64,000 nt of DNA, from contig JAQMRL010000012.1 of the NCBI GenBank assembly GCA_035578175.1, positions 17,525,715 through 17,589,714 on the forward strand. The letters are read 5' to 3'. The position numbers were made by a program, and so were the translations under genes. The stretch is from Catonia carolina. Taxonomy: Eukaryota; Arthropoda; Insecta; Hemiptera; Achilidae. The notes under the pieces were generated by a model that saw nothing but the letters and a program-made list of their open reading frames with translations, made no database searches and was not told where the DNA came from. This document shows, in pieces, positions 12,665-43,188 of this stretch; the stretch's first letter is position 1; each line of letters begins with the position of its first letter.

Positions 12665-12727
12665 ATGGAGGCCGATGTTGTTATGGAAGAAGAATACCCT
12701 GATTCGAGTGATTCTTCTGATGATGAG
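12665..12727 (+). CDS. C2H2 zinc-finger gene, first coding exon
   Basis: ATG at 12665 lies in a good start context (CCAAAATGG). It encodes 21 residues, MEADVVMEEEYPDSSDSSDD followed by Glu, a highly acidic N-terminus. The exon ends GAG|GTAATA at 12727, exactly on a codon boundary (phase 0). That matches the entry phase of all downstream cassette exons and of the zinc-finger exon, which is why it is joined to them. A non-coding upstream exon is possible (an AG at about 12610), but none is proved. The assignment to one gene is inferred from phase, order, strand and acidic composition; no transcript evidence is available here. Confidence 0.6.
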
Positions 12728-13168
12728 GTAATAGTTAAAGATAAAATAAAAATTATTAAAGTCACTTTTACAAACTACTCGTAAAATTACTCCTAAATTA
12801 CTCTTTCAAAGTAATTACTTTTCGAACCCCCACACAGTTATGGAAATTATTTTTCCACCCTTTATAACAGTGCTGGTGGAAGTAGAATACTGAAATTACC
12901 CTTAGCTTGTTGGTTACGGAAGTTTTAATTTTTTTAATGTCTTAAACGATACACTTTGAGGTTATTTTTCAATCTGGGTTATTGTTATGGTTATTTGTTC
13001 AAACATTTTCTTTCATTGTCGGCACATAAAATGTCTGTAATAAAGATGTGTTATGAAACTGCCTCAGTTATTTTTCTAACTGGACTGTAATGGCTAGAAA
13101 ATTATAGGCTGATTTAATAAATAGATAAATAAGTGACTGTTTAATCTTATTAATATGAGTTATTAATA

Positions 13169-13837
13169 CAGTAGACTCTTAAAAATCCGGATCGCGCTAG
13201 TCCGGACGATGATGGGATTGGCCCGATGAACGATCATGCAATTAGCACTATAATTTGTGTGTATGTACTTTTTAATAATAATTGCATATATGAAATGTAT
13301 GTAAATGACATTTTTTATCATTTAGGGCCCACAGTAGTTTGAGTCGTTGGGAGCTCTGTGTTTCAGTAAAACCTATGTTTATAATTTTACGAGACATTTT
13401 ATTTAATCCCAGAACGGTACTTTACTAAGCACAGTACCGTACTACAGTACATATAGATTTTATTTAGTTGATCGTGTAATTACTCTATAATTGAGACATA
13501 TATGACGTTCATTGTTACATGTTTGAAATCCGTAACTTGCAAATCTTACAAAGAGTGCAATCGAATCTTATTACGGTACAGTAGCGTTAAGTTTAGTCAA
13601 TGTTTGTGCTTCGTATATTGAATAATTACAGTACCAGTAGCCTACTGTAATTTATTAGGCCTACTGTGTTTTAAAGTTTTTTCAGAAGCTCACTCTTATA
13701 TTAACAGATAAACGTTAATGCTTTTTGTCATAATTATTCACCATAAAGACGAAATTGCCAACCTCCGGGAAATCCGGATTTTTCAAAATCCGGACCGGCC
13801 GTCCGCCACATTAGTCCGGATTTCTGAGAGTCTAGTG
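13169..13837. mobile_element. Tigger/pogo-like MITE in intron
   Basis: It is flanked by TA at 13167-13168 and 13838-13839. The ends are CAGTAGACTCTTAAAAATCC and the complement of GGATTTCTGAGAGTCTAGTG, an imperfect inverted repeat of about 23 bp. CCGGA-containing subterminal repeats occur near 13190-13205 and 13770-13820. Ends starting CAGTAGACTCT with a TA duplication are typical of Tigger/pogo families. No coding sequence remains. Confidence 0.7.
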
Positions 13838-13894
13838 TATTATGAAAACACTGAGAACAAATAGAATAGAATTGAAATCACAAGTAAACAATAT

Positions 13895-14040
13895 AAGAGG
13901 CGTGGCAATTAAATTAACAGACTGGTGCTGATAGCAGCAAATAGTGAGCGCGATGTGGCAGGTTTGAACATGTCTGTGCCTGCATCAACAGGCACAGACA
14001 TGTAATTCTGTAAATTTATACAAAAATTGCGAAATGAAAA
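13895..14040. repeat. Mariner-like end relic with a perfect palindrome
   Basis: The block GGCGTGGCAATTAAATTAAC resembles the start of some mariner elements. It is followed by a perfect 14-bp inverted repeat (CATGTCTGTGCCTG, 13969-13982, complement at 13989-14002) around a 6-base loop. No second end or transposase was found, so the mariner link is weak. Confidence 0.35.
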
Positions 14041-14519: not shown

Positions 14520-14625
14520 ATTTATGGTTGCCCGAAAACAAAAATGCCTTTTTACCAGTTGGTCGTTGGTCGCTGAATGGGGTGGTCATTAAGAGAAGTT
14601 TAACTGTATTAAATTGTAGTTTAGC
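14520..14625. repeat. Tail repeat of the array units, upstream copy
   Basis: AATGCCTTTTTACCAGTTGG through AGAGAAGTTTAACTGTA matches the terminal block seen at 23160-23310, 26460-26630, 29390-29550 and 33550-33720 inside the exon array. The end, read on the minus strand as CAGTTAAACTTCTCTTAATG after TA, looks like a Tigger-type terminus. Here it stands alone, outside the array. Confidence 0.5.
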
Positions 14626-16638: not shown

Positions 16639-16758
16639 ATTCAGGTTAAAATTGACCAGGAATGTCTTATGAACAGTGATAAGGGACTTGATGCGATCAA
16701 TTATTGTGATGATGAAGAACCTCCTTTTGAAAGTAGGCCTACATCTCCTGTTACAATG
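16639..16758 (+). CDS. Cassette exon 1 of the zinc-finger gene (40 codons)
   Basis: The acceptor is CTTTTTAG|ATT (16638) and the donor ATG|GTAAGT (16759). It is phase 0 at both ends and fully open. It encodes IQVKIDQECLMNSDKGLDAI and a further 20 residues including DDEEPPFE. It aligns along its length with eight other exons downstream. The VKID motif is the counterpart of VKIE/VKSE in the others. It is the most diverged in the middle (NYC for NSG). The conserved flanks, TTTTAATTTTCTTTTTAG before and GTAAGTCATCATTCTTGTTT after, show that exon and intron edges were duplicated together. Confidence 0.65.
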
Positions 16759-18365
16759 GTAAGTCATCATTCTTGTTTCTGTGTTCAATTTTTCAGTTTT
16801 GTGTATTAGTTAACCCTTATAAGCAGTGGGCCGATGGAATGGACCCACAACTTTCAATGTTCGTAGTTGAAACATTTCGATACAGATTATGTTGTTATGA
16901 TACTATTAAAACCAGCTATTGTTTTTCTGTGTACATGTGTATGAAATTTTATCTCTTTTAATTACCACCAACGGAGATGCAGCAATTGAATGGGCAGTTA
17001 GTTTTCATCATGGTAGCCACGCCCGTGATGTAACCTAGATAATTTTACTTTATCTATGTATGATTCCGTTGCATTTATTCCATTTGTACATTCATAGTCG
17101 TTTTAAGAACAATTTATACAAAATTAAAAACTGATTGCATGCTAAATGTTCCTCACAAGAGAATAGAATTTTAGCAAATAAATCTTGTAGAGCATAAAAA
17201 ATTTAGTAAATGAGGCGATTTTTAACAAAAATTCATAGCAGTTTTTGAGAAAAATGTGCCTAATGTAAGTTTCATGTTCCAACTTTGCACTATTCCATTC
17301 TAGAGATATTTTGTTCAAATGCAGACGAATTGCCAATAGTACGTATATTTTTTGGTTCAGGGGACCTGAAACTGATATTTTCGGTGAAAACTCAATTTTG
17401 AAAAAATGACAAAACCTGCATTGTTCTTCCCTGTATATTCATACAGGGCAAGATAAATTAAAAAGCTACCAAACTGATCTACATTAAAAACAAGTCTTAG
17501 TAATTCTTTAGCCATGGCAGTATGACCTTTTCTTTCCATGATTTACTATCTGTTTCTCCTTGTATCATGCAATAAACTATTCCGTGATGTATTTTTAAGC
17601 AATCACTCCAACGATTGAAACCAATAAAGTCATTATTTGCAATTAAGATAGATATTTTCTGTTAAAATGAACGCACAACTCGCATTAAGAATAAAATTCA
17701 CTTTCGAAACCACCTGGCAGCTGTGAGAGTTTATTGACGTTGGTGATTTCAATATTTACTTTCTTGCCCTTTGTGAAATATATAGGGAAGGAAACATTTG
17801 GTTGTTTTATGGCGATTTTTCAAATTAGTTTTCACCAGAAATACTTGTTTTCAAGTTCCTGAACCCAAAAACCATGTTTTTAAAGTTTGGCATGTGTGTG
17901 CATGAACAAAACTAGGAACGTTAAGTTACCTCTAGGGGACCTGACACTTAACATTTTCATAAAAATTGGTCAACCGGAGGTAGTAGTTATTCGTGCAGTT
18001 TTTAACTTATTTGCGATTTTTTCATAAACGGCTGCTATGATTTGCTTTAAAATCTTCTCATTTATAAAATTTTTGTGCTCTACAAGATACAGTACGCTGC
18101 GTGTCTACTGAAATTCACTGAGGGTGGTGCTGCGCTGTTTTAGTAAAGTGTTTTTTTTTTAAATAGTGACCTGAATATGAATTTCAGGGCAAAACCATAT
18201 ATAATCATTTTCATTTCGGGTTTTGTTTCTACAGTGCGTGAGTTAGTAATTTACATACTTTTTAAGTCGAACAGAGGTTGATTTTCATTTAGCGTCAATC
18301 ACTCATGATTAAAATTAGGTTATGTTTGTCTTATAACATTGTGTACTTGTGATTAAAGTAATATG

Positions 18366-18812
18366 TAACCCAACTCAAACCACGTGGCCTCACAATGGTG
18401 AATGCGCAGCAGTCTAGTCTGACCTTGAATGACTGAGGAGCTGGCCGCACAGCCAGCTACAACAAGACTTGTAATTGGTCATACAGTCCGCACTCTAATT
18501 ACAAGCTGAATATCTTAGGAGCAACAATGATAGCTAGTATATTCCTTCATCTTTAGTTGATAAGTTGGAGTGTCTTAAGTGCTAGTTCGATATTATCTTA
18601 AATATTGCGTTGATGTCTAGTAAGTATCAATATTTATTTCTAGAGTAGTTCAGTTTTCAGTGCTGCGAATAAAATACATTTTCCGAAATTTAGTTTAAAT
18701 TTTCAATCTGACTGTACAGAACGTGTCACAGTATTTCCATCTCTTTCTAAATAGCTCTTTCTCACACAGCTGGTGTGTGCATCTCAAAAGCCATGTGGTT
18801 TGAGTTGGGTTA
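18366..18812. mobile_element. MITE-like insert with 23-bp inverted ends
   Basis: TAACCCAACTCAAACCACGT at the left edge is mirrored at the right edge (ACATGGTTTGAGTTGGGTTA-type, one mismatch in 23 bp). It lies in the decayed repeat part of array unit 1. The target duplication is unclear, so a DNA transposon or a short LTR derivative are both possible; an AATAAA sits at about 18669. Confidence 0.55.
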
Positions 18813-19035
18813 TATTTCATTATAAATAAAATTTATCACCTTAACTTTTGTTGCGTTTTAAGTTTAAAAAACTTATGCGTGTTTCACTGGTACCTTCTTC
18901 AGATAAATATTATTAAAATGAAAAATAAATTAAGAACTGTTACCATTCAGTCATTTAGATTAAAAATTGTCTTTAATTTAATTTTCTTTAATATAAAGCC
19001 CCAGCCAAAATGACTGACTGACATAAATTATAACC

Positions 19036-19515
19036 CCTTAGGAGGTCTTTAGAAGCAAAATCCCTGAAGACCTTTTTTGTCGGGCGTCGGCTGAAACCCC
19101 CGGGAAAAATTGGAAATTAAAAGTATCTTTTCGAAAGCTCAAGGAGGCGCGCGAATATTTCGATCTTTTTAACGAAGTCTCGTAGCGCAAAGGCCACTGC
19201 GACCACTTTTGTTACCCTCCAGTAGTACGTTAAGACCATATATATAAAGTTGCTCTTAACCTGACGGTTCGCTGGAAAAACACAAAAAATAAAAATTCGG
19301 CTTTTTCGGGGTTGCAATTTTTAAGTTTTTCTTTGTAACACCACGAAGACAGGTTTCTCTGGCAAATGTTTATTAGGACCACATTACACTCACTCTCAGC
19401 ATTACGGGTGACTTTTCAAATTTTAGATCGGGATCGGGGTCATACGGGGTTTGGTACTCTTATTTAAAAATTATGAAATTTTAAAATTTTTAGAATACAA
19501 AAAATCTGTTTACGG
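19036..19515 (+). repeat. Single copy of the 440-bp satellite-like repeat
   Basis: ACGGTTCGCTGGAAAAACAC, CGGCTTTTTCGGGGTTG, AACACCACGAAGACAGG and ATCACGGGTGAC-like blocks match the tandem repeat at 36375-37880 in the same order and orientation. The copy sits just upstream of cassette exon 2. The first 200 bp are less certain. Confidence 0.6.
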
Positions 19516-19597
19516 TATGTAACCCTATCTCGTGTGTAGACAAGGGACTTGGCAATGAATGCTGGTAAACCAATATTAATTTTAATTTTCTTTTTAG

Positions 19598-19729
19598 GTT
19601 AATCTTCAAAGCGAATACGAATCTATTTTGAACGAAGGATTTATTATCACATCTGATCAAGGATCAGATATGATAAATTATGGTGATTATAAAGAACCTC
19701 TTGATGAAAATATTTCTCCTCTTACTACG
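19598..19729 (+). CDS. Cassette exon 2 (44 codons)
   Basis: The acceptor is TTTTTAG|GTT (19597) and the donor ACG|GTAAGT (19730). It is open and phase 0 on both sides. It encodes VNLQSEYESILNEGFIITSD and a further 24 residues containing MINYGDYKEP. This is the longest and most diverged cassette: the lysine of the VKxE motif is replaced (LQSE) and a short insertion precedes the DQGSDMI block. The splice-site flanks match the family. Paralogy is clear, but inclusion in mRNA is unproved. Confidence 0.6.
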
Positions 19730-21589
19730 GTAAGTCATCGTTCTTGTTTCTGTTTTCAATTACTGAGTTTTGTAATTTGTGTATTAGTTAACCCTTTTAG
19801 GCCATGGGCCGATCGATTGACCCACAACTTTTAATGTTTGTAGTTCAAACATTTTGATACAATCGCATTGTTATTTACATTATTAAAACCTGCTATTGTT
19901 TTTCTGTGTACGTGTATATGAAAGTTTATCCTCTTTTTATTAGCAGCAATGAAGATACTGCAATTGAATGGGCTGTTCGTTTTTATCAATCATGGAAACC
20001 ATGCCTGTGTTTTAACCTATAATTGTACTGCATCTGCGTGTGATTCCTTCGCATTTATTCTAAATGTACATCCATAATCAGTCGTTTTAAGAACAATTTG
20101 TACAAAATGTAAAAACTGATTGCATGCTAAATGTTCCACACAAGAGAATCATGATAAATCATGATATATCAGCAGATATAGCCCTTACCCTATCTATCCT
20201 AATCTATCTTGTAGAGCATAAAAAATTTAGTGAATGAGGTAAGTTTTTAAAAATAATTCCTAGGAGCTGTTTTTTGAGAAAATCGCAAAAAAGTGAAAAA
20301 TTGAATGATTCATTTATTACTTTCGGTTGACTGAAATGTTCTTGTCGGGTCCACTAGTGGTACCAAACTTAAGTTTCACGTTTCAACTTTCTAGTATATT
20401 CCATTCTAGAGATATTTTGTTCACATTGTAGACCAATTGTTGAAAAGACGTTTATTTTTTGGTTCAGGGGACCTGAAACATGTATTTTTCAGGGAAAACT
20501 TTATTGTAAAAAATGACATAAAACCTGTACTGTACTAACCTGTATATTCGTATTGGGCAAGAGAATGTAAAAAGATACCACACTGATTACATAAAAAACA
20601 GTCTTGGTCACTGTAAATTCTTTAGTCACTCTGGCAAGATATTTTCTTTCAATGATTTACTCTGTTTCTCCATGTATTGTCACATAAAACAGTGATAATT
20701 TATCCCTTCTAGGGAATGACAAATTTGTTGTTTTAGGGACTCTCACAATTGAATATATAAAAAAATAATAATGAATGTAATATTAAGTTAACCATCTAAT
20801 TTTTTATTTCTTTGATTTTATTATGTAGGTAACATGTATTTTTAATTATGATTTAAAAAATAATTAATTTCAAACGACAAATTAAAGTTACAGCCTTTTA
20901 ACCCTAGAAGCGGTAATAGGTTTAACTTAAAGTGCCAAGCATTTTTAACAAAAAAAAAAACATGCTTACGAAAACAATTTTGTATTTTTGTATTTCAGAT
21001 ATCAGGTACATATTATATACCAAATTAAACAGAAAAGATACCTGACTGTTATTTTTGTTTTCTGATAATATTATTTCCCAAATAACCAGGACTAATGAAA
21101 TATTTATAATAACAAATTTGAGTAATATGTTTTGTGTTATTAGCTACTTGACAGATTTACCTAAACAAATGTGTAAAAATGGAAATATACATTTTTTTGT
21201 GCAATCTTTCTAGAATAATTACTTTTTTGAATTATCAGTTTATCTGTTTTCGTTATTATAATATGTGAAAAAATGGTAAGGTCTGTAGAGAAAAGATCTA
21301 GGTTATGTTTACGCAATGTCAACATTTACAGAGTACACATTTATTTTCGTAGGTTTTATTTATTAAATATTTCATTCTTTTGTATTTTTTATTTATTATC
21401 ATGTTTGCATTTTTCCATTTTGTACATGTCCTCTTCTATTTTTCGAGAATTATGTCTTAATTCTTTCACATGTTTTGCATAATTAGATTCTATTCTATTG
21501 TATTTGAACGCTCTCTCATGTTCTTTAAATGTGGTGTAAAAATTACAAGTTGTCATTCCAAGACAGAAAATATCACAATCTTTATTTCC

Positions 21590-22095
21590 ATATTTTAGGT
21601 GTGGTGAGGAAGGACACAAACGAGATGACTGCGCCAAGGAGCTGTGGTGCATGTTATGTGCCATGGAAAATCTTTGTAAGGAGGTAGTTGCATATGTTCT
21701 GGGGTCGGGTGCGTGCCATGCTTTTTGCAAATGGGCTAAAGTAAAATAAGAAATGCGACATCGATTGGTTTAAAAGCATTGAGGATTAGGACAACATTCT
21801 TTCAGGTGAATCTGGGTAGAGGAAGAATAGCCCAGAATCTGTGTCTGCAGACAGCAACTGAACATTGAGCTGACATTCTGTTACCATCAGAACAGTATGG
21901 AAGAGTAGACACGGCAGAATAGTATAAAGATAAGAGTGGCGGGGGGAGCGATTATGGGTGTCAACCAGGCGATTCGTGTAAAAGTCCGTCAGACGACAGA
22001 CAGTTGGTTCGTCTTCATTAAGAAAGAGTGGACGTATTTAGTTGTTATTTTTGGCCTAATGATAAGAAAAAAATTTGAGGAGGAGCTGTTAGAGC
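21590..22095 (+). pseudogene. Non-LTR retrotransposon fragment: gag zinc knuckle and endonuclease start
   Basis: The first part encodes a CCHC knuckle RCGEEGHKRDDCAK followed by CMLCAMENLC, as in the gag-like ORF1 of R1-type non-LTR elements. The next part (from about 21790, frames interrupted) reads VNLGRGRIAQNLCLQTATE and ILLPSEQYGRV-like text, the start of the apurinic-type endonuclease. It then continues VRQTTDSWFVFIKKEW and EEELLELKNRV. Stops and frameshifts make it dead. It ends where the conserved flank of cassette exon 3 begins. Related pieces recur at 22430, 25405 and 32870. Confidence 0.7.
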
Positions 22096-22171
22096 TCAAA
22101 AACAGGGTCTTGTGTGTAGACAAAGGGCTTGGCAGTGAATTCTGGTAAACCAATTTTAATTTTCTTTTTAG

Positions 22172-22294
22172 GTTCATGTAATAATTGAACACGAACCTCT
22201 TTTAAACAGTAATGAGGGAACAAATCTGTTTAATTCCGGTGACGATAAAGAACATCCTGTTGAAATTACAGGAATTACAGCTCCTGTAACAGTG
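22172..22294 (+). CDS. Cassette exon 3 (41 codons)
   Basis: The acceptor is CTTTTTAG|GTT (22171) and the donor GTG|GTAAGT (22295). It is open and phase 0/0. It encodes VHVIIEHEPLLNSNEGTNLF and a further 21 residues (NSGDDKEHPVEITG...). It is close to cassettes 4 and 5, with a short insertion EITGIT. The VKIE lysine is changed (VIIE). The conserved downstream flank is cut short at about 22430, where non-LTR sequence follows directly, so this unit has an internal deletion. Confidence 0.65.
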
Positions 22295-22429
22295 GTAAGT
22301 CATCATTTTTGTTTCTATGTTCAGTTACTAAGTTTTGTAATTTATGTATTAGTTAACCCTTTTAGGTGACTGGTCAATTGAATTGACCCGCAACTGTTAA
22401 TGTTCGTAGTTGTTCAACATTTTGGTACA

Positions 22430-23310
22430 GACTCGTGTAAAAGACCATCAGGGGACAGACGGTTCATCTCCATTAAGAATTATGGAATGGGGGTATTTAG
22501 TTATTTTTGGCCCAATGATAAGAGGGAGGAATTCGAGGAGGTGCTGTTAGAGCTCGAAAACAGGGTCAGAATGGGAGGTGATTAATTCATAGTTGCAGGA
22601 GACTTTAATGCTATATCCCCACTATGAGGGGAATAGTGTCAGGACTAGAGATAACAGTAGGTAGAGGAGATTATACCAACGTTGGATATAGTAGTGATTA
22701 TTGTTGGGGAAGTCATGAGCATTGGAGGAGGGAACACCGCGTCGATAATAGATATGACACTAGTCAATAATCTGACACTGGCTAGTCAGCAAGTTGCTAA
22801 GCGGTTTTGAAGTTGGGAAGTCCTAGAGAAGGAAACGCTGAGCAACCATTCATAGATCCTTTTCCATATCTTAGGGACTGAAAGCTGGAGAGGCTACAAT
22901 GGCTCAGATAAAGAGAGAGACCAGAGATTGACTTCTCAGGAGGTGGCAGGAGAGATTTGATGAAGAGGTGTTCGGTCGATGGACACATAGATTGATTTCA
23001 AATCTAAAGAAATTGCTTAGTAGGTTGCCGATCAAATGAAGCAAGCTAACTGGATGGTGAGATGGAAGAGAGGGCGATGTAGATGATGTGATGTTCAATT
23101 GCAGAAGATTGATACCAGAGAGGAAGGTTCTAGGGACCCTGTTTGGGTCGCCACGAAAATGCCTTTTTACCTGGCGGTCGTTGGTTGGAGTGAGGGTGGT
23201 CGCTTAATAGGGGTATAGAATATATTGGTCTTATGAGTAATAAAATCGGTTCCACAAATATTCGGTTGGAGAGAAGGGTGGTCGTTGAGAGAAGTTTAAC
23301 TGTATAATAA
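22430..23310 (+). pseudogene. Non-LTR retrotransposon fragment: endonuclease to C-terminus, with tail repeat
   Basis: It is readable in pieces as FSYFWPNDKREEFEEVLLEL, VAGDFNA (the conserved GDFNAK/H endonuclease motif) and DMTLVNNLTLASQQVAKRF. Then come LKAGEATMAQ-like text and a C-terminal RRLIPERKVLGTLF-type segment. Many stops occur. The final 150 bp are the tail repeat ending in TTTAACTGTA. The order endonuclease to C-terminal domain without a full reverse transcriptase shows a large internal deletion. Confidence 0.65.
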
Positions 23311-24690
23311 AAGTTGTAGGAAATTAAAAAGCTTATAACTTTTGTTGCAAATAATTTTTTCTTCAATATGCAGTTTAGTGTCAATTAGTAATTATCTGTG
23401 TTAAGCTTATAAAAATCAGTAAACCAGTAAAAATAAAATTTACTGGAATAAGTTATTTTTTAATTAATTTTCCATAAATATTTAACGAAGTTACAAAATG
23501 TTCAACATTAGTCCATTTTCACATCACAGGGAAGCATGAAAGGATGGTATTTTACATTCTTTATGGTGATGTCACAGAGCCACTATTGTATTTAGGTTAC
23601 AGCTGTGAGCAAAACAATGTAGAAAATTCTTTTCCCTATAACCACGGGTTTTGAAAAATTCTGTAGGTGCGGTTAGAACGAGCCGTTACACATCCTTTAT
23701 AGGATGTTGTTTTAGGAGGGGGTTTATAAACCCCCTCCTGAACAGTAAAGTGGACTCTTCTTCCCTTTTCAAGGGTAAATTCCGTTATAGAAATAGCTTC
23801 AATACAAACTAAAGAACATGCATGTACGTGGACTTACACACGAGCTGGACGAACTTCCATTCAAAACAAACAATTCCCAAACCATCAATGCTACCTACAC
23901 ACTATAGAGGGAATAAAAATTTTCCTTTTTATAAAATTCTATTTCTGTAAACACTATTAGATGCGTTAAAGAATTCCCTACTGGAAAAGAACAATATTTA
24001 CCGGGTTCCGTCTAACACTTAACTAGCTGCAGCGTGTTTCATCGCCTCCCCCATCATCAATTGTGCAGATCTACTGAATTAGATCTACTGTTTGAACTGG
24101 GTTAGCTTTAAATTGATTTATTTATACTGTGAATTTCAAGAACTATTTTAACTATTTTAACTATGTTAAAATAGTTCTGAAAACTTTATTATCGAATAAA
24201 TATTTATTAATATACTTTATAATGATCGACAAATTAACAATACAACTTGAATGTTAAATAATGCATAATTTAAACTTTTAATAACAATGAAAAAAATTGT
24301 AGAGGGAAATTTTCAATTTCAAAAAGGGAATTCTTTTTTTAAAATATATCTAAAATATCCCTCAGGGAAAAAGTTACTATCTGCATAATTTGAAACTACT
24401 GTAATATAGTGTCAATTAGTGATTTTCTCTATTTTTAAGTTCTACACAGGTTGATTTTTGTTTTTTGTTAATAACTCATTATTAAAATTAAGGTATGTTT
24501 TTAATATTACATTGTTTACATATTATAAAACAAGATTCATTATTTATACTGGCAAGAGAGAGTTGAGAATGTTTCTTACTAGATTTTGTATCTAAGAATT
24601 GTGCCTGTAATTTGTGATCAACCTGTCTTGTGTATAGACAAAGGGCTGGGCTGTGAATTCTTGTAAACATGTTTTAATTTTTTTTTTTAG

Positions 24691-24804
24691 GTTCATGTTA
24701 AAATTGAACATGAATCTCCTTTAAACAGTGATGAGGGAACAAATATGATAAATTCTGGTGATGATAAAGAACGTCCTGTTGAAAGTACATCTCTTGTTAC
24801 CATG
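24691..24804 (+). CDS. Cassette exon 4 (38 codons)
   Basis: The acceptor is TTTTTTTTAG|GTT (24690) and the donor ATG|GTAAGT (24805). It is open and phase 0/0. It encodes VHVKIEHESPLNSDEGTNMI and a further 18 residues (NSGDDKERPVES...). This is the copy closest to the family consensus. VKIEHESP exactly fits the pattern psi-K-x-E-x-x-S-P, known as a phosphorylation-dependent sumoylation motif; whether it is used is unknown. The poly-T tract before the acceptor is unusually pure. Confidence 0.68.
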
Positions 24805-25404
24805 GTAAGTCATCATTCTTATTTCTGTTTTCAGTTACTTAGTTTTGTAATTTGTGTATTAGTTAACCCTTTTAGGCAGCGAGCTGATCGAATTGACCCA
24901 CAACTTTCAATGTTCTTAGTTCAAACATTACGGTACAGATCGCGTTGTTATTTACACTGTTAAAACCAGCTATTCTTTTTCTATTACATGTATATGAAAT
25001 TTTATCCTCTTTTAATTAGCAGCAACGGAGATACAGCAATTGAATTGCTGTTAATTTCCATTCATCATGGTAACCACACCAAGTTTATATAATTATACTG
25101 CATCTGCGTTTGATTCAGTTGCATCTATTCCATTTGTACATTCATAATCAGTCGTTTTAAGAACAATTATGTGTTTCAAACATTTGAAATATTTAATTTT
25201 TTGTATTTATTTATTATCATATGTACATTTTTCCAATATATAACCTCTTCGTTTTGTTTTGAAAATTATGTTCTGATTCTTTTACTTGTTTTGCAAAATA
25301 AGATTCTATTTTATTGTATTTGAGTGCTTTTCAATGTTCTTTAAATCTGGTATAAAAAATTCCGAGTTGTCGTTCCAATATAAAACGTATCCCAATCTCT
25401 ATTT

Positions 25405-27113: not shown

Positions 27114-27227
27114 GTTAATGTTAAAATCGAACACGAATCTCTTTTAAACAATGATGAGGGAACAGATTTGATAAATTCTGGTGACGATAAAGAAAGTCCT
27201 GTTGAAACTACATCGCCTGTTACAATT
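27114..27227 (+). pseudogene. Cassette exon 5, donor site lost
   Basis: The exon body is intact and open for 38 codons, VNVKIEHESLLNNDEGTDLI and then NSGDDKESPVETTSPVTI. Its acceptor is usable (TCTTATTAG|GTT). The donor is destroyed: where the other eight have GTAAGTCAT, this copy reads GAAAGTCAT at 27228. The conserved downstream flank is also deleted after about 25 bp, bringing exon 6 to only 180 bp away. If that 180-bp segment were retained, a stop (TAA, 27318-27320) would end the protein. The copy is therefore probably skipped or dead, although its coding sequence shows little decay, which suggests recent loss. Confidence 0.65.
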
Positions 27228-27407: not shown

Positions 27408-27530
27408 TTTCATGTTAAAAGCGAAGACGAACCTCTTTTGGAAGGTGATGAGGGTACCTCTTTTGGAACTGAATTGATAAATTCTGGTGACGATGGTAAA
27501 TGTACTGTTGAAACTGCACCTCCTGTGATT
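27408..27530 (+). CDS. Cassette exon 6 (41 codons)
   Basis: The acceptor is TTTTTTTTTAG|TTT (27407) and the donor ATT|GTAAGT (27531). It is open and phase 0/0. It encodes FHVKSEDEPLLEGDEGTSFG and a further 21 residues (TELINSGDDGKCTV...). It groups with cassette 9 in sharing VKSEDE, an L-L-x-G-D-E-G block and an ending in PPVI/LPVI before the donor. A short insertion (SFGTE) is specific to this copy. The downstream flank is well conserved with unit 9, including AACTGTCAATGTTCGT. Confidence 0.65.
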
Positions 27531-29369: not shown

Positions 29370-29560
29370 CTAGGACCCTGCTTGGGCCGCACGAAAATGC
29401 CTTTTTACTTGGTCGGAGTGAGGGGTGGTTGGTTAATAGGGTTATAGAATACATTGGTCTTATGAGTAGTAAAATCGGTTCCCCAAATATTCAGCCGGAG
29501 AGAGGGGTGGTTGCTGTATGGGAGTGGTCGTTGAGAGAAGGTTAACTGTGTGATTAAAGT
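29370..29560 (+). repeat. Non-LTR tail repeat only
   Basis: GGACCCTGCTTGGGCCGC through GAGAGAAGGTTAACTGTG is the 3' block found after the non-LTR fragments in other units. Upstream coding pieces are missing here. Positions 28960-29369 show no recognised feature. Confidence 0.6.
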
Positions 29561-30024: not shown

Positions 30025-30970
30025 ACTTTCTCTGCCTATATGAATATATAGGAAGGAAAGTATTGTTTTCATGTAGATTTTTAGAAATCGAGTTTTCACC
30101 GGATCTATACGTTTTCAGACCCCCTGAACCCAAAAAACATGTTTTTAGCGATTGGTCTGTGTGTGTGTGTCTGTGTGTCTGTGTGTGTGTATACAAAATA
30201 TCTCAAGAATGGAACATCGTACGAACTTGAAACTTAAAACTTAAGTTGCATACCACTACCGGACCCGACACGAACATTTTCATCAAAATCGGCCAACCGG
30301 AAGTAGTAGTTTATTCGTGTAATTTTTCACTTTTTTGCGATTTTCTCAAAAACTGGTCCTACAATTTTTTTTAAAATCTCCTGGTTTATTCAGTTTTTTA
30401 TTCTCTACAAGATAGGGTAGGCGGCATTTTTGCTGAAATTCTTGGTGAGGCTGTTTTCACGTAAAAACGTTGTTTTTTTAAGATTACGGCTTAAATATGC
30501 ATTTTAGCGCAAAAATTTATATAACAAAAGTTGTAGAGAATTTAAAATCCTACAACTTTTATTTCAAACATTTTTTTGTATAACGCTTAGTTTAGCAGTA
30601 ATTAGCGATTTTCTGATTTTTTCTCATGAAAACGTGTGAAAAATCTTTTTTTTAAATATTTCGGCCTTAGTATGCATTTTACGACAAAAGTGTATATAAT
30701 CAAATTTATAGGAAATTAAAAGATCTACAACTTTTATTCAAAGCATTTTTCTCTACAGAGCCTAGTTTAGTGTGAAAGAGTGATTTTCCATATTTTTAAG
30801 CCAAACTGAGTTCGATTTTCATTTTGCGTCTTTCACTCATGATTAAAATTAGGTTATGTTTATTGAGGTTAGTTTTTTGTTTATTTCTTATGTTTTATTA
30901 CTAATGTTAGGTTTATTGTTAATTATTTGCACTGGCAAGAGAAAGTTGTGTGAGTGTTTCACACCAGATT
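30025..30970 (+). mobile_element. Full-length HINE-like repeat inserted beside cassette exon 7
   Basis: A complete forward copy runs from ACTTTCTCTGCCTATATGAA, through a (GT)n-type run at 30155-30190, to subterminal GGCAAGAGAAAGT (30937-30949) and the terminal hairpin GTGTGAGTGTTTCACAC before CAGATT. Paralogous units read TTTTAATTTTCTTTTTAG before their exons. Here the element sits between TTTTAATT and TTTTTCTTTTTAG, so it landed in the T-run of the polypyrimidine tract, about 13 bp before the AG. Insertion between two Ts fits Helentron-type elements. Confidence 0.7.
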
Positions 30971-30983
30971 TTTTTCTTTTTAG

Positions 30984-31106
30984 GTTCATGTTAAAATTGA
31001 GCACAAATCTCTTTTAAGCAGTGATGATGAGGGAGCAGATATGATCAATTCTGGTGATGATAACGAACGTCCTGTTGAAAGTACGCCTACATCACCTGCT
31101 ACAATG
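30984..31106 (+). CDS. Cassette exon 7 (41 codons)
   Basis: The acceptor is TTTTCTTTTTAG|GTT (30983) and the donor ATG|GTAAGT (31107). It is open and phase 0/0. It encodes VHVKIEHKSLLSSDDEGADM and a further 21 residues (INSGDDNERPVESTPTSP...). The branch-point region normally upstream has been displaced by the HINE-like insertion, so splicing must use element-derived sequence. The coding body shows no decay. Three residues (TPT) near the end are shared in position with cassette 1. Confidence 0.62.
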
Positions 31107-32567
31107 GTAAGTCATCATTCTTGTCTCTTTGATCAATTACTGAGTTTTGTAATTTGTGTATTAGTTAACCTTTTAAGGCCGCTGGCCGATCAAATTGACC
31201 CACAACTTAAGTGTTCGTAATCAAACATTTCCGTACAATCGCATTGTTATTTACACTATTATAACCAGCTATTGTTTTTTTATGTATGTGTGTATGAAAT
31301 TTTATCCTATTTTAATTAGCAGCAACAAAAATATAGCAATTGAATGGGCTGTTAGTTTCCATTCATCATGGCAGTCACGCCCGTGATTTAACCTATATTG
31401 TACTGCATGTGCTTGTGATTCCGTAGCATTTATTCCATTCGCACATTTACGATCAGTCGTTTTAAGAACAATTTGTACAAAATTTAAAAACTTATAGCAT
31501 GCTAAATGTTCGACACAAGAGAGTAAAATTTTAGCAAATTTAGCTCTTAACTTATCTTGTAGAGCATAAAAAATTAAGCAAAGGAGGCAATTTTTTTAAA
31601 AACAATTGTATAAGCTGATTTCGAAAAATTGCAAAAAAGTGAAAGATTGCATGAATAAACTTACTTTTGCTAAACCGATTTTAATGAAAATGTTCTTGTC
31701 GGATCCTTTAGCGGTACCTAACTTAAAAGTTACAAAGTTTATGTTTGAACTTTGTACTATATTTCACTCTTGAGATATTTTTGCACATGTAGACAAATTG
31801 CTGAAAATATTTATTTTTTGGTTCAGGTGAACTGAAATTTTGGTGAAAACTCAATTTTGAAAAAATGACATAAACTGTACTGTACTTCCTTACATATTCA
31901 TATAGGGCAAGAAAAATTAAAAAGATTCCAAACTGATCTACATTAAAAACAAGTCTTGGTAATTCTTTTGCCATGGCAGTATGGCATTTCTTTCTATGAT
32001 TTACTATCTTGTTTCTCCATGAATCATATAATTAACTTTTCCGTAATTTATCGTTAAGCGGTCAATTCAATGAATGAAACCAATGAAGTCAGTAATGTTT
32101 AGTTCTTTTGCAGTTTCCATAGATTTTATCCATTAAAATGAACACACAACTATCTTTAAGAATCAAATTAATTTTTGAAACTACCAGGTGGGCTGTTAGA
32201 GTTCATTAACGTTGACGATGATTTCTATATTTACTTTCTCTTGCCCTATGTGAAATATATAGGGAAGGAAATTATTGTTTTAAGGTGATTTTTCAAATTA
32301 GTTTCACTAGAAATACTAGTTTTCAAGTTCCCTGAACCCAAAAAACATGTTTTTACAGATTGGTTGTGTGTGCTTGAATGTGTGTGTGGAATATCATACA
32401 AACTTAAAACTCGGATTAGTTAGGAACTCACCACATCGTAAGCACTGGATGCTTTTATCAGATTTTTACCTAAGAATTTTGCCTGTAGTTTGTGATCAAC
32501 CTGTCTTGTGTATAGACAAAGGGCTTGGCAGTGAATTCTGGTAAACACGTTTTAATTTTTCTTTTAG

Positions 32568-32681
32568 GTTCATGTTAAAAGCGAACACGAAACTCCTTTA
32601 AGCGGTGATGAGGAAACTGATGTGATAAATTCTGGTGATGATAAAGAATGTCCTGTTGAACCTGCATCTCCTGTTCCAATG
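32568..32681 (+). CDS. Cassette exon 8 (38 codons)
   Basis: The acceptor is TTTCTTTTAG|GTT (32567) and the donor ATG|GTAAGT (32682). It is open and phase 0/0. It encodes VHVKSEHETPLSGDEETDVI and a further 18 residues (NSGDDKECPVEPASPV...). The distance from cassette 7 is only 1584 bp because much of the usual inter-exon sequence is missing. The downstream flank runs only about 190 bp before joining non-LTR reverse-transcriptase sequence. Confidence 0.65.
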
Positions 32682-32869
32682 GTAAGTCATCATTCTTGTT
32701 TCTTTGTTCTGAGTTTTGTAATTTGTGTATTTAACCCTTTTAGTCCGTGGGCCGATCGATTGACCCACAACTTTCAATGTTCGTAGTCAAACATTTCGGT
32801 ACAGATAAATAACAATGTGTTATTTACACTATTAAAACCAGTAATTTTTTTTCTATGGGATTATTTTTT

Positions 32870-33735
32870 CTACAGGGGTTTTACTTTTGGACCTCACATG
32901 AAAAAGGTATCAAAGAAGGCCGCTGTGGCGGCAGGGAACTTATCATGGTTGATACCCAATGTTGGTGGGTCCAGAGAAAAAAAGCAGGTTGCATGCAAGT
33001 GCATCAACCCGGTCTGGGTTGATGTGATGACAAAACTGTTACATAACGAGAGGGTGCTGTTGGTTCAGAGATAAGTGGCACTAAGAGTTACGTCGGCAAA
33101 CCGAATAGTTTCAGCGGGTGTAGTAATGGTGGTGGCAGGCATAACCCTTATAGATTTGCTAGCCTGGGAAAGAAGTGAGATATCTGGGGGACTGAAAGCT
33201 GGAGAGGCTACAATGGCTTAGATAAAGAGAGAGAGGTCAGAGATAGACTTCTCGGAGGTGGCAGGAGAGATGGAATGAAGAGGGGTCCGGTCGATGGCCA
33301 CATAGATTGATTTCAGATCTAAAGAAATGGCTGCGTAGGGTGTACAGCGAGATATGTTATTACCTCATGCAGGCATTGACGGGGCATGGTTGCTTTCAGG
33401 TGTATCTCTACTGGTTTAATCCAAGAGAAGCTGTCAAAGAAAGCTGTCTGGATTGTGAGGCGAAAGAGGATGACTCAGAACATGCGATTTTCAACTGCAG
33501 AAGATGGATACCAGAGAGGGAGGTTCTGGGGACCCTGCTTGGGCCGCCATGAAAATGCCTTTTTATCTAGTGGTCGTTGGTCGGAGTGAGGGTTGGCCGC
33601 TTAATAAGGGTATAGAATACATTGGCCTTAAGTGTAATAATCGGTTCCGCAAATATTTGGTCGGAGAGAGGGTTGGTCGCTGAATAGGAGTGGTTGTTAA
33701 GAGAAGTTAAACTGTATAATTAAAGTTGTAGGAAA
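32870..33735 (+). pseudogene. Non-LTR retrotransposon C-terminal fragment and tail
   Basis: It encodes FGPHMKKVSKKAAVAAGNLS and WLIPNVGGSREKKQV, the thumb-like region after the reverse transcriptase in R1-group elements. This is followed by VWVDVMTK and then YYLMQALTGHGCFQVYLYWF with EDDSEHAIFNCRRW, the conserved C-terminal HCCH-like part. Frameshifts separate the pieces. It ends with the tail repeat (ATGAAAATGCCTTTTTAT through AAACTGTA). Confidence 0.72.
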
Positions 33736-33742
33736 TTAAAAA

Positions 33743-34587
33743 TCTGGTGTGAAACACATGACTTTTTCTTGTCAATGCAAATAATGAACAATATAACCTA
33801 GCATTAGAAATAACAAAAATACTGACCTCAAAAACATAACCTTTTTTTAATCATGATTGAATGATGCAAAATGAAAATCAACCTCTGTTTGGGTTAATAA
33901 TTTGGATAATCACTCTTTCATGCTAAACTAGGCTCTGTAGAGAAAAATGGTTAAAATAAAAGTTGTAATCTTTTAATTTTTGATAAATTTTATTATATAC
34001 AAGTTTGTCGTACAATGCATACTAAAGCTGAAATCTTAAAATTTTCTTACAGATTTTTATGAAAGAAAACAGACAAGAACTGCTAAACTAAGTGTTTTAC
34101 AAAAAAATGTTCGAAGTAAAAGTTGTAGGTTTTAAAATTGTCTAAAACTGTTATACACTTTATATTAAGGCTGCAATCTTAAAAACAGCTTCCCAAGAAT
34201 TTCAGCAGACATTGCGCCTACCCTATCTTGTAGAGCATACAATGTGGTAAATGAGGCGATTTTTTAAAAAATCGTAAAAGCTGTTTTTGAGAAAATCGCA
34301 AAAAAATGAAAAATTAAACAAATAAACTACTACTTCTGGTTGACCGATTTTGATGAAAATGATAAGTGTCTGGGTCCTTTAGTGGTACTAAACTTAAGTT
34401 TTAAGTTTCAATTTTGTACGATGTTTTGTTCTTAAAATATTTTGTACACACACACACACACACACAGACAAATCGCTAAAAACATGTTTTTTTGGTTCAG
34501 GGGGTCTGAAAATGTGTTTATCCGGTAACTTGATTTCGAAAATCAACAATACTTTCCTTCCTATGTATTCATGTAGGCAAGAGAAAG
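33743..34587 (-). mobile_element. Near full-length HINE-like repeat, reverse
   Basis: It starts with TCTGGTGTGAAACACATGAC and ends with ATTCATGTAGGCAAGAGAAAG, with an (AC)n run near 34443-34465. It interrupts GGAAATTAAAAA|ATACATAACTTTTATTGC, which is uninterrupted at 26638-26668 and 29565-29600, so an empty site exists in paralogous units. Confidence 0.65.
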
Positions 34588-35091
34588 AAAAAATACATAA
34601 CTTTTATTGCAAACAATTTTTTTCTTTAAAACTCAATTAAGCATCAATAAGTAATTTTCTGTATTTTGCTCATGTAAATCAGTTTAAAAAATGGGATTTT
34701 TAAGATTGCGGCCCTAGTATGATGTATTTTACAACATAAGAATATAAAACTAAAGTTACAGAAAATTAAAAGAAACTTAAAACTTTTAACATTTTTTCTA
34801 CAGTCTTAATTTAGTGTCAATTAGTGATTTTTTCTATATTTAAGTTCTACACAGGTTGATTCTCATTTTGCATCATTCACTCATAATTAAGTTATGTTTT
34901 TATCTTACATTGTTTAATAAAATTATATAACAGTTTTATTATTTACACTGGCAAGAGAGAGTTGTTTGACTGTTTCACACGAGAGCTTTTACCTAAGAAT
35001 TATGCTGTAATTTGTGATCAACATTTCTTAAGTATAGACAAGAGGCGCTTGGCAGTGAACTCTGGTTAACAAGTTATAATTTTCTTTTTAG

Positions 35092-35202
35092 GTTAATGTT
35101 AAAAGCGAAGATGAATCTCTTTTGAAAGGTGACGAGGGAACAGATTCGACAAATTCTGGCGATGATGAAAAAAGTCCTGTTGAAACTGCACTTCCTGTAA
35201 TT
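35092..35202 (+). CDS. Cassette exon 9 (37 codons)
   Basis: The acceptor is CTTTTTAG|GTT (35091) and the donor ATT|GTAAGT (35203). It is open and phase 0/0. It encodes VNVKSEDESLLKGDEGTDST and a further 17 residues (NSGDDEKSPVETALPVI). It is the last recognisable cassette before the zinc-finger exon 7.2 kb downstream. Its flank continues to about 35830 before joining unrelated repeats. Confidence 0.65.
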
Positions 35203-35879
35203 GTAAGTCATCATTCTTGTTTCTGTGTTCAATTACTCAGTTTTGTAATTTGTGTTTTGGTTAACCCTTACAGGCCATGGATCGATCGAATTGACGCACA
35301 ACTAACTGTCAATGTTCGTAGATCAAACATTTCGGTACAATCGCATTGTTATTTACAGTATTAAAATCAGCTATTGTTTTTCTATGTACGTGTGTATGAA
35401 ATTTTATCCTCTTTTAATTAGTAGCAATGAAGATACAGCAATTGAATGGGCAGTTAGTTTACATTCATCATGGTAGCCATGCCCATGTTTATAATTAATT
35501 GTACTGTATCTGTGTGTGATTCCGTTGCATTTATTTCATTTGAATATTCATAATCTGTTGTTTAAAGAACAATTTGTACCAAATGTAAAAACAGATGGCA
35601 TGCTAAATGTTCCATACAAGAGAATAGAATATCAGCAGATTTAGCGCTTAACCTATCTTGTAGAGCATAAAAAATTTAGTAAATGAGGCAATTTTTAGAA
35701 ATAAATCTTGGAGCTGTTTTTGAGAAAATCGGAAAAAAGTGAAAAATTGCATGAATCAACTATCACTTTTGGTTGACTGATTTTGATGGAAATGCTCGTG
35801 TTGGGTCCTCTAGTGGTACCAAACTTTCAACTTTGTACGTTTTTTTTTTTTTTTTAGCTTTTTGTTATTGGGAACTGTA

Positions 35880-39907: not shown

Positions 39908-40457
39908 CTTTCTTTATATGAATATATAGGAAGGAAAGTATTGTTATCATGTCGATTTTTTGAAATAGTTTTCACTGGATATACACGTTTTCAGACCCCC
40001 GTGAACCCAAAAAAAATGTTTGTAGCGATAGGGTCTAGTGCAATTTCACTCGGATTTCGGCTCAACCCCCATGAAATAAGTTCACAATGAAATTTTTAGG
40101 GTGTTAATGAAGAGTCAAAAAATGATAGTTTCTTATGGTTTGTGGAACAGATTCCAGAACCATATCCCAAGTAGTTTTTGAGAAATCTGGCGGTAAAACT
40201 GAAATAAATAAGGGGAAAAAACCTCTGTTTCTTATAACTTTGTTAAATATAGGGAATAAATACATACTGGTTTTAAATGAAATTTGTAAATAAGGTTTAA
40301 ATAGTCAACTACAAAACAATAAGTTGCAAAAAACAAAACTTAATTCACGTAGAAACAGAAGTACTTTCGGTGATAAATTTACATAAAAAAAATTTGTTCA
40401 TAAATACATAAATTCATAAAATTGTTAGCGTGTTACGGTATATAAATATACCGTATT

Positions 40458-41660
40458 TCACCTGTTATTTTCTAAAATAACAGCTGGTATAGAATGGTTG
40501 TGTTTATAATCTTCCCCAGTTACAAGAGAGCGATTATACCCACACCACGATAATTTCCCACTTGGACATAGCTGATGAGTGGGGTTTTGATCAGTGGATT
40601 TTTTGTGATAAAATATCATGGCCCATATTGCTTTTCTCATTTCATCTACATCTTCGCAATTATCTCTTATTGCCTTAACATAATAATTTTGGAGATTATC
40701 AATTTCCAAATCAGTCAGTCTTTCTTTCCCTCGCAAATTTTTACCATCTGAAAGTTTTTCACCTCTACTTTTTCTGCAAACTTCTCGCAGTCAAGCCCCC
40801 ATCCTCTTCTGCACATGGCAAATGCATTCTACCTTTTCAATTAAAACATCAGGACCATATGGCTGTTTGACAAACAGAATCATAGCCTTTAGAATCCCCA
40901 TCCCCTAAATGTCAGAAACCTAACACCGCATTTCATAGTGGAATTACAGAAAATGCGTTCTGCTCCCTTCACCTCGATTTAGCTCACAATCTAGCTCACG
41001 TTTATCTCTCTTATTTTCATCACCCTTTGATAAGACACAACCATGACAATATTTAGACATGCAGTACACATCAATTATTTTCCCTGTTTCAACAGACGGT
41101 GCAGCAACGACATAATGCAGTGAAGTATAACCTCTCTTTCGCCAAGTTCGATCTAAGGCAATAGCAAGATCTGTTGAGCCAGTTTTACTGATAACTTCCT
41201 GAGTGGCTTCTACCATGCAACTTTTTCAATATTAGACCGAATCAATTTATTATACGTCTGAAACCATGTAGGGGGTCCAGGTATATCGAGAACAGTACAT
41301 AATGTATTTGCATCATTTCTTCCTTTTCCGATAGAACGAAGGGCATATACAAATTTTTAATTTATGTCGTAACCACTGTCTAACTTTTCACTACTCATGA
41401 ATGATTTTTGTTTATTACATTCGTTACATGAAAGTTGCTAGTTAGATGCACATCCTTTTCTTTTATCAAAATTTTCTGTAAGAGTTACAGTTCCTGTACC
41501 ATAGGATTTCCAAATGACAAAGTCGGATGAAATCAGACAGAAAAAACATTTTCAGCAGAAAAAACATTTTCAGTTTGCTCTTCGTTTTGGTTAGGTCGAA
41601 CCGTATGTTGATTATTAGAGAATTTACGTCTTTTTAAGTAATTTATTAGATCCGGCATAT
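40458..41660 (-). pseudogene. Mutator-domain (MULE-like) transposase fossil
   Basis: Read on the minus strand from ATG at 41660: MPDLINYLKRRKF, then FVYALRSIGKGRNDANTL and VLDIPGPPTWFQTYNK. After a frameshift come TDLAIALDRTWRKRGYTSLH and VVAAPSVETGKIIDV. Downstream are ECICHVQKRMGA and KERLTDLEIDNLQNYYVKAI with a C-terminal HQLCPSGKLSWCGYNR. The order DxTWxKRGHTS, then TGKxIDV, then an LQNYY segment is characteristic of the eukaryotic Mutator-like transposase domain family. Several stops and at least one frameshift make it non-functional. Terminal repeats were not found. Confidence 0.65.
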
Positions 41661-41918
41661 TTACTGTTTCGCAGAAACAGTAAATATCATAACGCAGAAA
41701 CCGTTTCTTACTTCCTCAACATACTTGCCACATGTAGCCCCTCTAAAAGCACGCTGCCAAAAATTTGTGTCTCTTAATTTATCTTTTATTTTTTGCCATT
41801 CTCTCACAAACTTTTCACTAACAGAAAACTGCCATTCCACTGCTCTGTTACTGTGTTTTTCAGCAAATGCAATAACTATTAGTTTAAAACCAGCGGTATA
41901 ACTGTCGTATTTCACCAT
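41661..41918 (-). pseudogene. Pogo-like transposase N-terminal HTH fragment
   Basis: The frame encodes KYDSYTAGFKLIVIAFAEKH followed by VSEKFVREWQKIKDKL and RAFRG. This matches the Psq/CENP-B-type helix-turn-helix of pogo-like transposases (YxxxFKLxVIxYAE...VSExxVRxWRK). Only this domain is present. It abuts the Mutator-like fossil head to tail on the same strand, so either the elements are nested or one lies inside the other's edge. Confidence 0.6.
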
Positions 41919-42435
41919 TTAGAACCTAAAGATACATACTATTATGGTGTACTACTAAACACACTGAAATGGGTTGTTTACATAACAGCAGGCTTTTACT
42001 GAGAAACTGATAAGTGTTCGTTAAAACTGTCTGACTCAAACACAGCATTACCAGTCTCTTTCCGTTAAACAATTCTGATTTTTTGTAAATGACTAACAAC
42101 AAAAAATTTTAATACCATTTTTTGCCGTCAGAATTAGGGTTGCGACCATTATAAATTGCAAAAAATTAATTTTATTAACATCAAAATATCTGAGACTTGG
42201 CTGGAAAAATGCAATAACTTTTTACAGGAAGAATAATACATATAAATCAGATTTTGATCGGTGGAGCTTCGAAAAAGGTTCATCATGTTTTGCATTTATT
42301 TGAAATGATCTTCCTGTTAATGTGCACAATTTACATACTGCATGTACTTTTGCATGTTACGCGTAGATATTAAGTTAGTATTTTCATTTTGAAGTTATGT
42401 AATTGTTAAAACAGAAAAATTGATGTGTTTTTCAG

Positions 42436-43188
42436 TATGTACGGGAGAATATGGAGATGTTTACTGCTGTACATGTGCCGCCGAAAGACATTAACCGTAT
42501 CAAATCAACTTATCAAACTTCCAGCGATAATAACAATTGTAATGATATTCCAGACAGTAAAATAGGATTAAAAGAAATGATGTCCGGTAATAATAAAGAA
42601 AGTATTAAAAATAAAAATTTTAAAAACGATTCACGTACGAGTTCAACTGCTAAGAAAAATATGAAAAGTGATAAAGTGAAAAACAATTTTACTTGTCAAT
42701 TGTGCAACAAAGTGTTCTCTTCAACTGATAATTTACAAATCCATCTAAGGTCTCATACCGATGAACGACCATTTAAATGTGCCATTTGTCACGCAGATTT
42801 CTCATTATTAAAACGTGTACAACTGCACATGCTGTTACACATCAATGACAAACGATTTAAATGTCAATTTTGTGATAAAAAATTCTCACAAGCTATTCAT
42901 CTGAAAAAACATATGTCTATTCATGCCGGAAGGAAACCGTTTATGTGTCAAATATGTGATAAGAGTTTCGCGAAAGAAATCAATCTAAAATCGCATATGC
43001 GTTTGCATACCGGCGAAAAACCGTTCAAGTGTAGTCAGTGTAGTAAACGATTCTCGTTATTTATCACGTTGAAACGACATCAGATCATTCATACTGGTAA
43101 AAAACCGTTTAAATGTTTAGTTTGCCAAAAAGAATTTTCACTTGAGGTAAATTTGAAGTCGCATATGAAAGTTCATCCGGTTGTATAA
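42436..43188 (+). CDS. C2H2 zinc-finger protein, final exon with six fingers
   Basis: The acceptor is GTTTTTCAG|TAT (42435). Read in phase 0, the exon starts Tyr-Val-Arg-Glu-Asn and continues into Met at 42451, giving 250 residues to TAA at 43186-43188. The first 80 residues are Lys/Ser/Asn-rich. Six tandem C2H2 fingers then follow, with linkers HTDERP, HINDKR, HAGRKP, HTGEKP and HTGKKP. Each finger has C-x2-C-x12-H-x3-H. Such arrays bind DNA, so the product is probably a nuclear transcription regulator. No specific orthologue is recognised. The phase matches exon 1 and every cassette exon, supporting one gene; a start at the internal Met 42451 cannot be excluded. Confidence 0.85.
   Translation, partial: YVRENMEMFTAVHVPPKDINRIKSTYQTSSDNNNCNDIPDSKIGLKEMMSGNNKESIKNKNFKNDSRTSSTAKKNMKSDKVKNNFTCQLCNKVFSSTDNLQIHLRSHTDERPFKCAICHADFSLLKRVQLHMLLHINDKRFKCQFCDKKFSQAIHLKKHMSIHAGRKPFMCQICDKSFAKEINLKSHMRLHTGEKPFKCSQCSKRFSLFITLKRHQIIHTGKKPFKCLVCQKEFSLEVNLKSHMKVHPVV

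Follow-up and report, generated by a model that had tools for sequence, protein, structure and literature searches.

A tandem array of nine in-frame acidic exons ahead of a six-finger C2H2 exon in the hemipteran Catonia carolina

In the Drosophila genes lola, broad, fruitless and mod(mdg4), a shared part is joined to one of many exons, which gives rise to many isoforms; the shared part is an N-terminal half with a BTB domain, and the variable exon is C-terminal. Here we describe a C2H2 zinc-finger gene of the hemipteran Catonia carolina (Achilidae) which may be the mirror image of the lola and broad type, as its finger exon is constant and its N-terminal part could vary. The gene lies in a stretch of 64,000 nucleotides (GenBank assembly GCA_035578175.1, contig JAQMRL010000012.1, positions 17,525,715 to 17,589,714, forward strand), which was analysed as a whole and is referred to as the window; all positions below are counted from its first letter. 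Between the start exon and the finger exon stand nine paralogous phase-0 exons, here called cassettes, with intact frames, eight of which have both splice-site dinucleotides. The surprising part is that this frame-intact exon array has diverged faster than its own introns. As judged from sequence, we give about an even chance to the reading that the locus is an array of acidic SUMO-acceptor modules, variable in number, on a constant C2H2 DNA-binding domain.

Rows of paralogous exons that arose by tandem duplication, in which the adjacent intron can be copied along, are described for Dscam1, Mhc, CadN, MRP and hydra (PMC9013439, PMC6071210), and the array here is like them in both respects. The hydra array has nine copies, as here, and seven of the hydra copies have transposon flanks (PMC9013439). 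In contrast to these arrays, the one here consists of internal coding exons for the half of a C2H2 protein that does not bind DNA, and mutual exclusion finds no clear support. A further comparison is offered by Drosophila serpent (srp), a zinc-finger transcription factor gene whose isoforms arise by exon choice (PMC8844375) and which is treated as a gene with mutually exclusive exons (PMC9013439). Serpent is a GATA-finger protein in which one DNA-binding finger is included or left out by this choice, whereas the gene described here has a constant finger exon and carries its array in the opposite half. The preliminary description of this DNA knew of no exon array of such a size for the regulatory half of a C2H2 protein. 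We likewise found none for any C2H2 gene in the open-licence literature, of which our coverage was partial and several queries narrow, and the term "zinc finger" is absent from the main text of one treatment of tandem exon duplication (PMC9013439).

Nine cassette exons between a start exon and a finger exon

Exon 1, the cassettes and the six-finger C2H2 exon lie on one strand (+), and all of them are in phase 0. Exon 1 (12665..12727, +) reads MEADVVMEEEYPDSSDSSDDE and is followed by the donor GTAATA (GAG/GTAATA); it supplies the start codon and an acidic stretch of 21 residues and ends in phase 0. Its ATG, in the context AAAATGG, is separated by two codons from an in-frame TAA upstream. The last exon (42436..43188, +) is preceded by TTTTTCAG, opens in phase 0 and encodes 250 residues, made up of six C2H2 fingers and a basic linker rich in K and N (net charge +6), with the TAA at 43186-43188. 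By pattern, all six fingers are complete in an open frame, and comparison of the last exon with Pfam returned PF13465 (6.7e-41) and PF00096 (1.4e-28), five stretches passing singly for each. A hexamer AATAAA resembling a polyadenylation signal is found downstream at 43287..43292 (+).

The cassettes occupy 16639-35202 on the same strand (+) and measure 37-44 codons. Cassette 1 (16639..16758, +; 120 nt, 40 codons) carries the tetrapeptide VKID, a match to the SUMO-acceptor consensus ΨKx[ED]. Cassette 2 (19598..19729, +; 132 nt, 44 codons) and cassette 3 (22172..22294, +; 123 nt, 41 codons) are without ΨKxE. VKIE is present in cassette 4 (24691..24804, +; 114 nt, 38 codons), cassette 5 (27114..27227, +; 114 nt, 38 codons) and cassette 7 (30984..31106, +; 123 nt, 41 codons), and VKSE in cassette 6 (27408..27530, +; 123 nt, 41 codons), cassette 8 (32568..32681, +; 114 nt, 38 codons) and cassette 9 (35092..35202, +; 111 nt, 37 codons), the last of which also has LKGD. 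All nine lengths are divisible by three, and none of the nine contains an in-frame stop. Every acceptor is an AG after a T-rich tract and eight donors are GTAAGT; cassette 5 has GAAAGT instead, and read-through beyond it would hit a stop codon at 27318. The cassettes lie next to one another, are paralogous, share one phase and keep nine of nine acceptors and eight of nine donors, as expected of a tandem exon duplication array. Our splice-site and frame check agreed with the preliminary description on the phase-0 start and end of the cassettes, the nine acceptors and the eight GTAAGT donors, and its coordinates and exon counts (exon 1, nine cassettes, finger exon) are correct to the base. The 320 extra residues that it derived from eight usable cassettes were also obtained on summing the exon lengths.

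A 27-letter probe, applied to the whole window with at most nine mismatches, gave 12 matches, namely the nine cassettes, an unrelated site at 14084, and the opposite strand of cassettes 3 and 4; at the sensitivity of this probe no tenth copy was seen in the 64-kb window. In cassettes 4 and 9 the frame stays open for about 50 codons beyond the donor (24691-24963 and 35092-35364), forming stop-to-stop open reading frames of 90 residues, which are probably due to chance.

Duplication and divergence of the cassettes

The similarity of the cassettes to one another is far beyond chance. They are parts of larger duplications, in which intron was copied along and which were later broken up. When the unit of cassette 9 was compared with the window by BLAST, all eight other cassettes were matched over 326-933 nt at 75.0-86.5% identity, and the matches reach several hundred bases into the intron for cassettes 1, 2, 4, 6 and 7. 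Around cassette 9, the duplicated unit has a core (34994..35620, +) that comprises upstream flank, exon and about 420 nt of intron. We propose that one short acidic N-terminal coding exon of a C2H2 gene was multiplied by duplication of such genomic units, of which 0.3-0.9 kb can still be aligned.

Over the 36 cassette pairs, counting by the NG86 method gave pooled proportions of synonymous (pS) and nonsynonymous (pN) differences of 0.27 and 0.23 and a ratio of nonsynonymous to synonymous divergence (dN/dS) of 0.81, with single pairs ranging from 0.30 to 2.46. Mean divergence is 0.236 in the exon, 0.156 in the downstream intron and 0.167 in the upstream flank, the intron value being lowered in appearance by the omission of unalignable stretches from the intron alignments. 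The exon is more diverged than the downstream intron in 26 of the 28 comparable pairs, with the reverse in pairs 3-4 and 4-7; the eight pairs involving cassette 5 have no intron for comparison. In the six units whose introns are long, divergence is 0.259 in exon columns and 0.155 in intron columns; none of 20,000 column permutations gave so large a contrast, and the highest value for any 110-column intron window is at most 0.192.

Exon and intron rates were fitted jointly by likelihood on three topologies, with branch lengths shared and with the upstream flank of cassette 7 and the downstream flank of cassette 5 masked. The synonymous rate was 1.9-2.15 times and the nonsynonymous rate 1.5-1.7 times that of the intron. 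Equality of exon and intron rates was rejected (2ΔlnL 16-26, 2 degrees of freedom), and so was equality with the intron rate for nonsynonymous sites (9.6-16.3, 1 degree of freedom) and for synonymous sites (7.9-12.8, 1 degree of freedom). Equality of the synonymous and nonsynonymous rates was not rejected on any of the three topologies (2ΔlnL 0.7-1.2), and dN/dS among the cassettes is not clearly below 1, as it would be under purifying selection.

These values bear on the possibility that the array is decaying, with one or two cassettes in use and the others being neutral remnants of segmental duplication which by chance still look intact. A dN/dS of about 0.8 that does not fall below 1 in the likelihood test is in keeping with decay, and so are the 26 of 28 comparable pairs in which the intron is better conserved than the exon, the lost donor of cassette 5 and a region full of dispersed repeats. 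In neutral simulations (4,000 runs per setting), the share of runs with all nine copies stop-free was 0.9-3.0% when the exon rate was applied and 6-10% under the slower rate of the introns. However, none of the nine cassettes has acquired a stop and all their lengths are in frame, and neutral decay should not lead to exons at 0.259 against introns at 0.155 unless there is constraint on the introns or the alignment makes them look too similar. Gap blocks in the introns are multiples of three in 8 of 26 cases, against nine of nine raw cassette lengths; raw lengths were used here instead of exon gap blocks, which the protein-guided alignment forces to multiples of three. We consider a decaying array unlikely.

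The preliminary description had held that a dN/dS near 1 among the cassettes, together with flanks as conserved as the exons, would refute its reading of the array. The dN/dS is indeed near 1 and the flanks are at least as conserved as the exons, and purifying selection at the amino-acid level among the copies is not shown by this comparison. Yet that criterion was designed to detect junk, which would not be expected to out-diverge its own introns. The stop-free, in-frame cassettes favour translated modules that may be loosely constrained or diversifying over dead exons. We read them as weakly constrained or diversifying coding sequence because the frames are intact and the exons diverge faster than the introns. 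The raised synonymous rate may also come from a local mutation effect, from constraint on the introns or from alignment bias. A bolder version, in which diversifying selection acts on an evolvable SUMO-acceptor exon array of variable number, with splicing setting effector strength while DNA binding stays fixed, is in our opinion rather doubtful; a local rate effect could stand in its place because the synonymous rate is raised 1.9-2.15-fold as well. A frame-intact array of this kind would be discarded by the usual screen, which looks for dN/dS well below 1 and for exons more conserved than introns.

The order of the duplications can be followed in part. The stretch with cassettes 5 and 6 resembles that with cassettes 8 and 9 (27023-27254 against 32477-32708 at 85.3%, and 27244-28156 against 34933-35827 at 86.5%), and about 2.2 kb between cassettes 8 and 9 has no counterpart between cassettes 5 and 6. 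A two-exon block copy relating the two pairs is likely. We call it likely rather than shown because the trees do not group cassettes 5 and 8, and the case is built on local identity and on the clade of cassettes 6 and 9, which is the sole well-supported one (96-100, all other clades at most 71). In the trees from introns and from the combined data, cassette 5 joins cassette 3 (54-57), and gene conversion between units could distort the trees. As the unit homology breaks off about 20 nt past cassette 5, we attribute the absence of a donor and of an intron of its own in this cassette to loss. The upstream flank of cassette 7 is matched at 29971-30020 and again from 30972, and between these lies a sequence of about 950 nt, inserted or duplicated (30021-30971), which ends about 12 nt upstream of the exon. 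This sequence provides the bases directly before the acceptor of cassette 7 and may serve as a natural experiment on how much change an acceptor tolerates.

Other dispersed repeats adjoin several cassette units and recur elsewhere in the window, which accords with the idea that the cassette unit, too, belongs to the dispersed repeats and carries an exonisable segment, the array being a cluster of insertions. Such an origin would be compatible with the other readings, and it has a parallel in Drosophila hydra, whose nine homologous initial exons include seven flanked by DINE-1 (PMC9013439). Within the 64-kb window, though, the exon-bearing core is confined to this gene, and the pairing of cassettes 6 and 9, with that of 5 and 8, looks like a two-exon block copy; we regard this origin as very improbable.

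Splicing mode and the acidic modules

Because all junctions are in phase 0, any subset of cassettes joins in frame ahead of the one zinc-finger exon, as proposed in the preliminary description, and the frame has been kept despite a mean divergence of about 24%. The cassettes would be independent of one another and recognised by exon definition, and we infer that transcripts differ in the number of modules. The range of zero to eight modules proposed earlier is possible by frame; in one of the eight, cassette 7, the bases immediately before the acceptor have been replaced. Modules could be gained and lost at little cost since every junction is in phase 0, and such loss fits cassette 5, which is already without a donor.

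Each included module would add 37-44 residues with a net charge of -5 to -8, and seven of the nine would add VK[IS][ED]. The number of exons included would therefore set the acidity and the SUMO load of the protein and hence its repressive or partner-recruiting strength, while DNA specificity would be constant. If the number of cassettes used varies, the gene would offer effector modules in naturally titrated numbers on a single DNA-binding domain, and the dependence of repression on module number could be studied there in a simple setting.

The same exons could serve a protein of fixed composition, with every usable cassette always spliced in to make an eight-module acidic N-terminus and no isoform diversity. 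All eight usable cassettes have consensus donors and similar T-rich acceptors, and there is no sequence mark of weak or regulated cassettes, splice-site strength not having been scored. Equal inclusion is less likely, however, for cassette 7, which has a new upstream context ending about 12 nt short of the exon, and the introns between cassettes differ widely, from 180 to 3453 nt (in gene order, the introns measure 3911, 2839, 2442, 2396, 2309, 180, 3453, 1461, 2410 and 7233 nt). Constitutive inclusion is possible in our view, but doubtful.

A choice of one cassette per transcript, as in Dscam, was also put forward in the preliminary description. Mutual exclusion often accompanies tandem exon duplication (PMC9013439, PMC6071210), and pairing between docking and selector sequences of the Dscam type is described (PMC6071210). 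We computed RNA duplex energies between 420 windows from intron 1 and the last intron and 28 windows of the segments flanking the cassettes, cassette 5 being omitted. The best mean, -22.95 kcal/mol, was obtained for the window at 14553 (about 14553-14602, intron 1) against a segment behind the exons. Of 24 dinucleotide shuffles, 23 gave nothing as good. The best values of the first six ran from -20.6 to -22.2 kcal/mol (none of the six reaching the real value, the top one at -22.17), whereas one of the next 18 was better (-24.19 kcal/mol), and seven shuffles came within 0.8 kcal/mol of -22.95. The site at 14553 is a weak lead rather than a finding, as it does not stand clearly above chance. The core of cassette 9 (35000-35620) had no minus-strand BLAST match in the window, and the phase-0 junctions permit double inclusion. 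Choice of one at a time is thus without clear support, and we find it quite improbable; independent use of the cassettes or their constitutive inclusion seems more likely than a one-of-n choice. A search of the window against Rfam gave no match at the gathering thresholds.

Regarding the function of the modules, the motif VK[IS][ED] found in seven of the nine cassettes agrees with the SUMO consensus, which is a hydrophobic residue followed by K-x-E/D (PMC12630355). Comparison was made with other C2H2 proteins. The finger exon had 836 matches at E ≤1e-10 among 1051 candidates, and the best 120 of these are generic C2H2 proteins with 28-50% identity, among which there is no evident orthologue. 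From these 120, selected by finger similarity alone, 20 were dropped as their first finger starts less than 40 residues in, and 100 were kept. Before the fingers, these 100 proteins contain 142 ΨKxE motifs against 40.2 ± 6.2 after shuffling (1000 shuffles, maximum 62), an excess of about 3.5-fold, which is not to be taken as a probability, the proteins sharing ancestry and not being independent. At least one motif is present in 59 of the 100 N-termini and at least two in 40. Control motifs (200 shuffles each) were not enriched, whether reversed (35 against 40.6), with a non-hydrophobic first residue (101 against 137.2), with R for K (25 against 25.7) or with Q/N for E/D (19 against 22.5). It is telling that the enrichment is specific to the exact SUMO consensus, and this suggests a broader rule on SUMO acceptors for this class of proteins. 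The motif-bearing N-termini include examples from cockroach, fish and fly. Poly-C2H2 proteins of arthropods and fish (for example Periplaneta P0015, P0022 and P0060; fish P0003 and P0013) likewise have an acidic N-terminus and repeated ΨKx[ED] before the finger block; they differ in being known here as single protein models, and the cassette search described below gave no homologue.

Several observations weigh against an array of SUMO-acceptor modules that varies in number. Cassettes 2 and 3 lack the motif lysine, and the cassettes are related, so that motif counts among them are not independent. The motif positions V3-K4-E6 are not better conserved in the cassettes than others, being equalled by 16% of random triples, and for this reason SUMO conjugation stays an inferred step. 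The dN/dS of 0.81 is not distinguishable from 1, and the 6-10% of neutral runs with nine stop-free copies at the slower intron rate makes the open frames suggestive at that rate. The docking candidate was bettered by just one of the 24 shuffles, which leaves room for one-of-n pairing. The finger exon is preceded by an intron of 7233 nt that contains transposon pieces. Finally, no cassette homologue in other species was found at E ≤10 among 3535 word-sharing candidates; the query was residues 1-260 of a 425-residue model, which run from exon 1 through four of the nine cassettes (4, 7, 8 and 9) and the linker to the start of finger 1.

No known N-terminal effector domain (KRAB, ZAD, SCAN or BTB) was found in Pfam for exon 1 joined to eight of the nine cassettes. 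There were three matches, all of them unrelated and under the curated cut-offs.

Neighbourhood of the gene

Upstream of the gene, an exon at 7022-7657 (-) has a cytidylyltransferase-like match (PF01467, 4.5e-6) and presumably belongs to a coenzyme A synthase gene running leftwards. The last intron of the zinc-finger gene holds a Mutator-like transposase fragment at 40458-40790 (-), which scores 26.2 bits against the Pfam cut-off of 26.5 bits, and a reverse-transcriptase fragment whose best match among 44 is a protein of Nilaparvata lugens (78% identity). This single mobile fragment points to a planthopper or a close relative as the probable source of the genome. Downstream, two mariner-like transposase fragments with PF01359 matches lie at 45871-46392 (-) and 48637-49242 (-), and the open reading frame at 46393-46782 (-), which adjoins a mariner-like fragment, has a sub-threshold match to a transposase helix-turn-helix (HTH) domain. 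A 25-bp minisatellite of 9 copies occupies 43404-43625, shortly past the AATAAA hexamer, and a 71-bp tandem repeat of 4.1 copies with 93% matches is found at 57923-58213.

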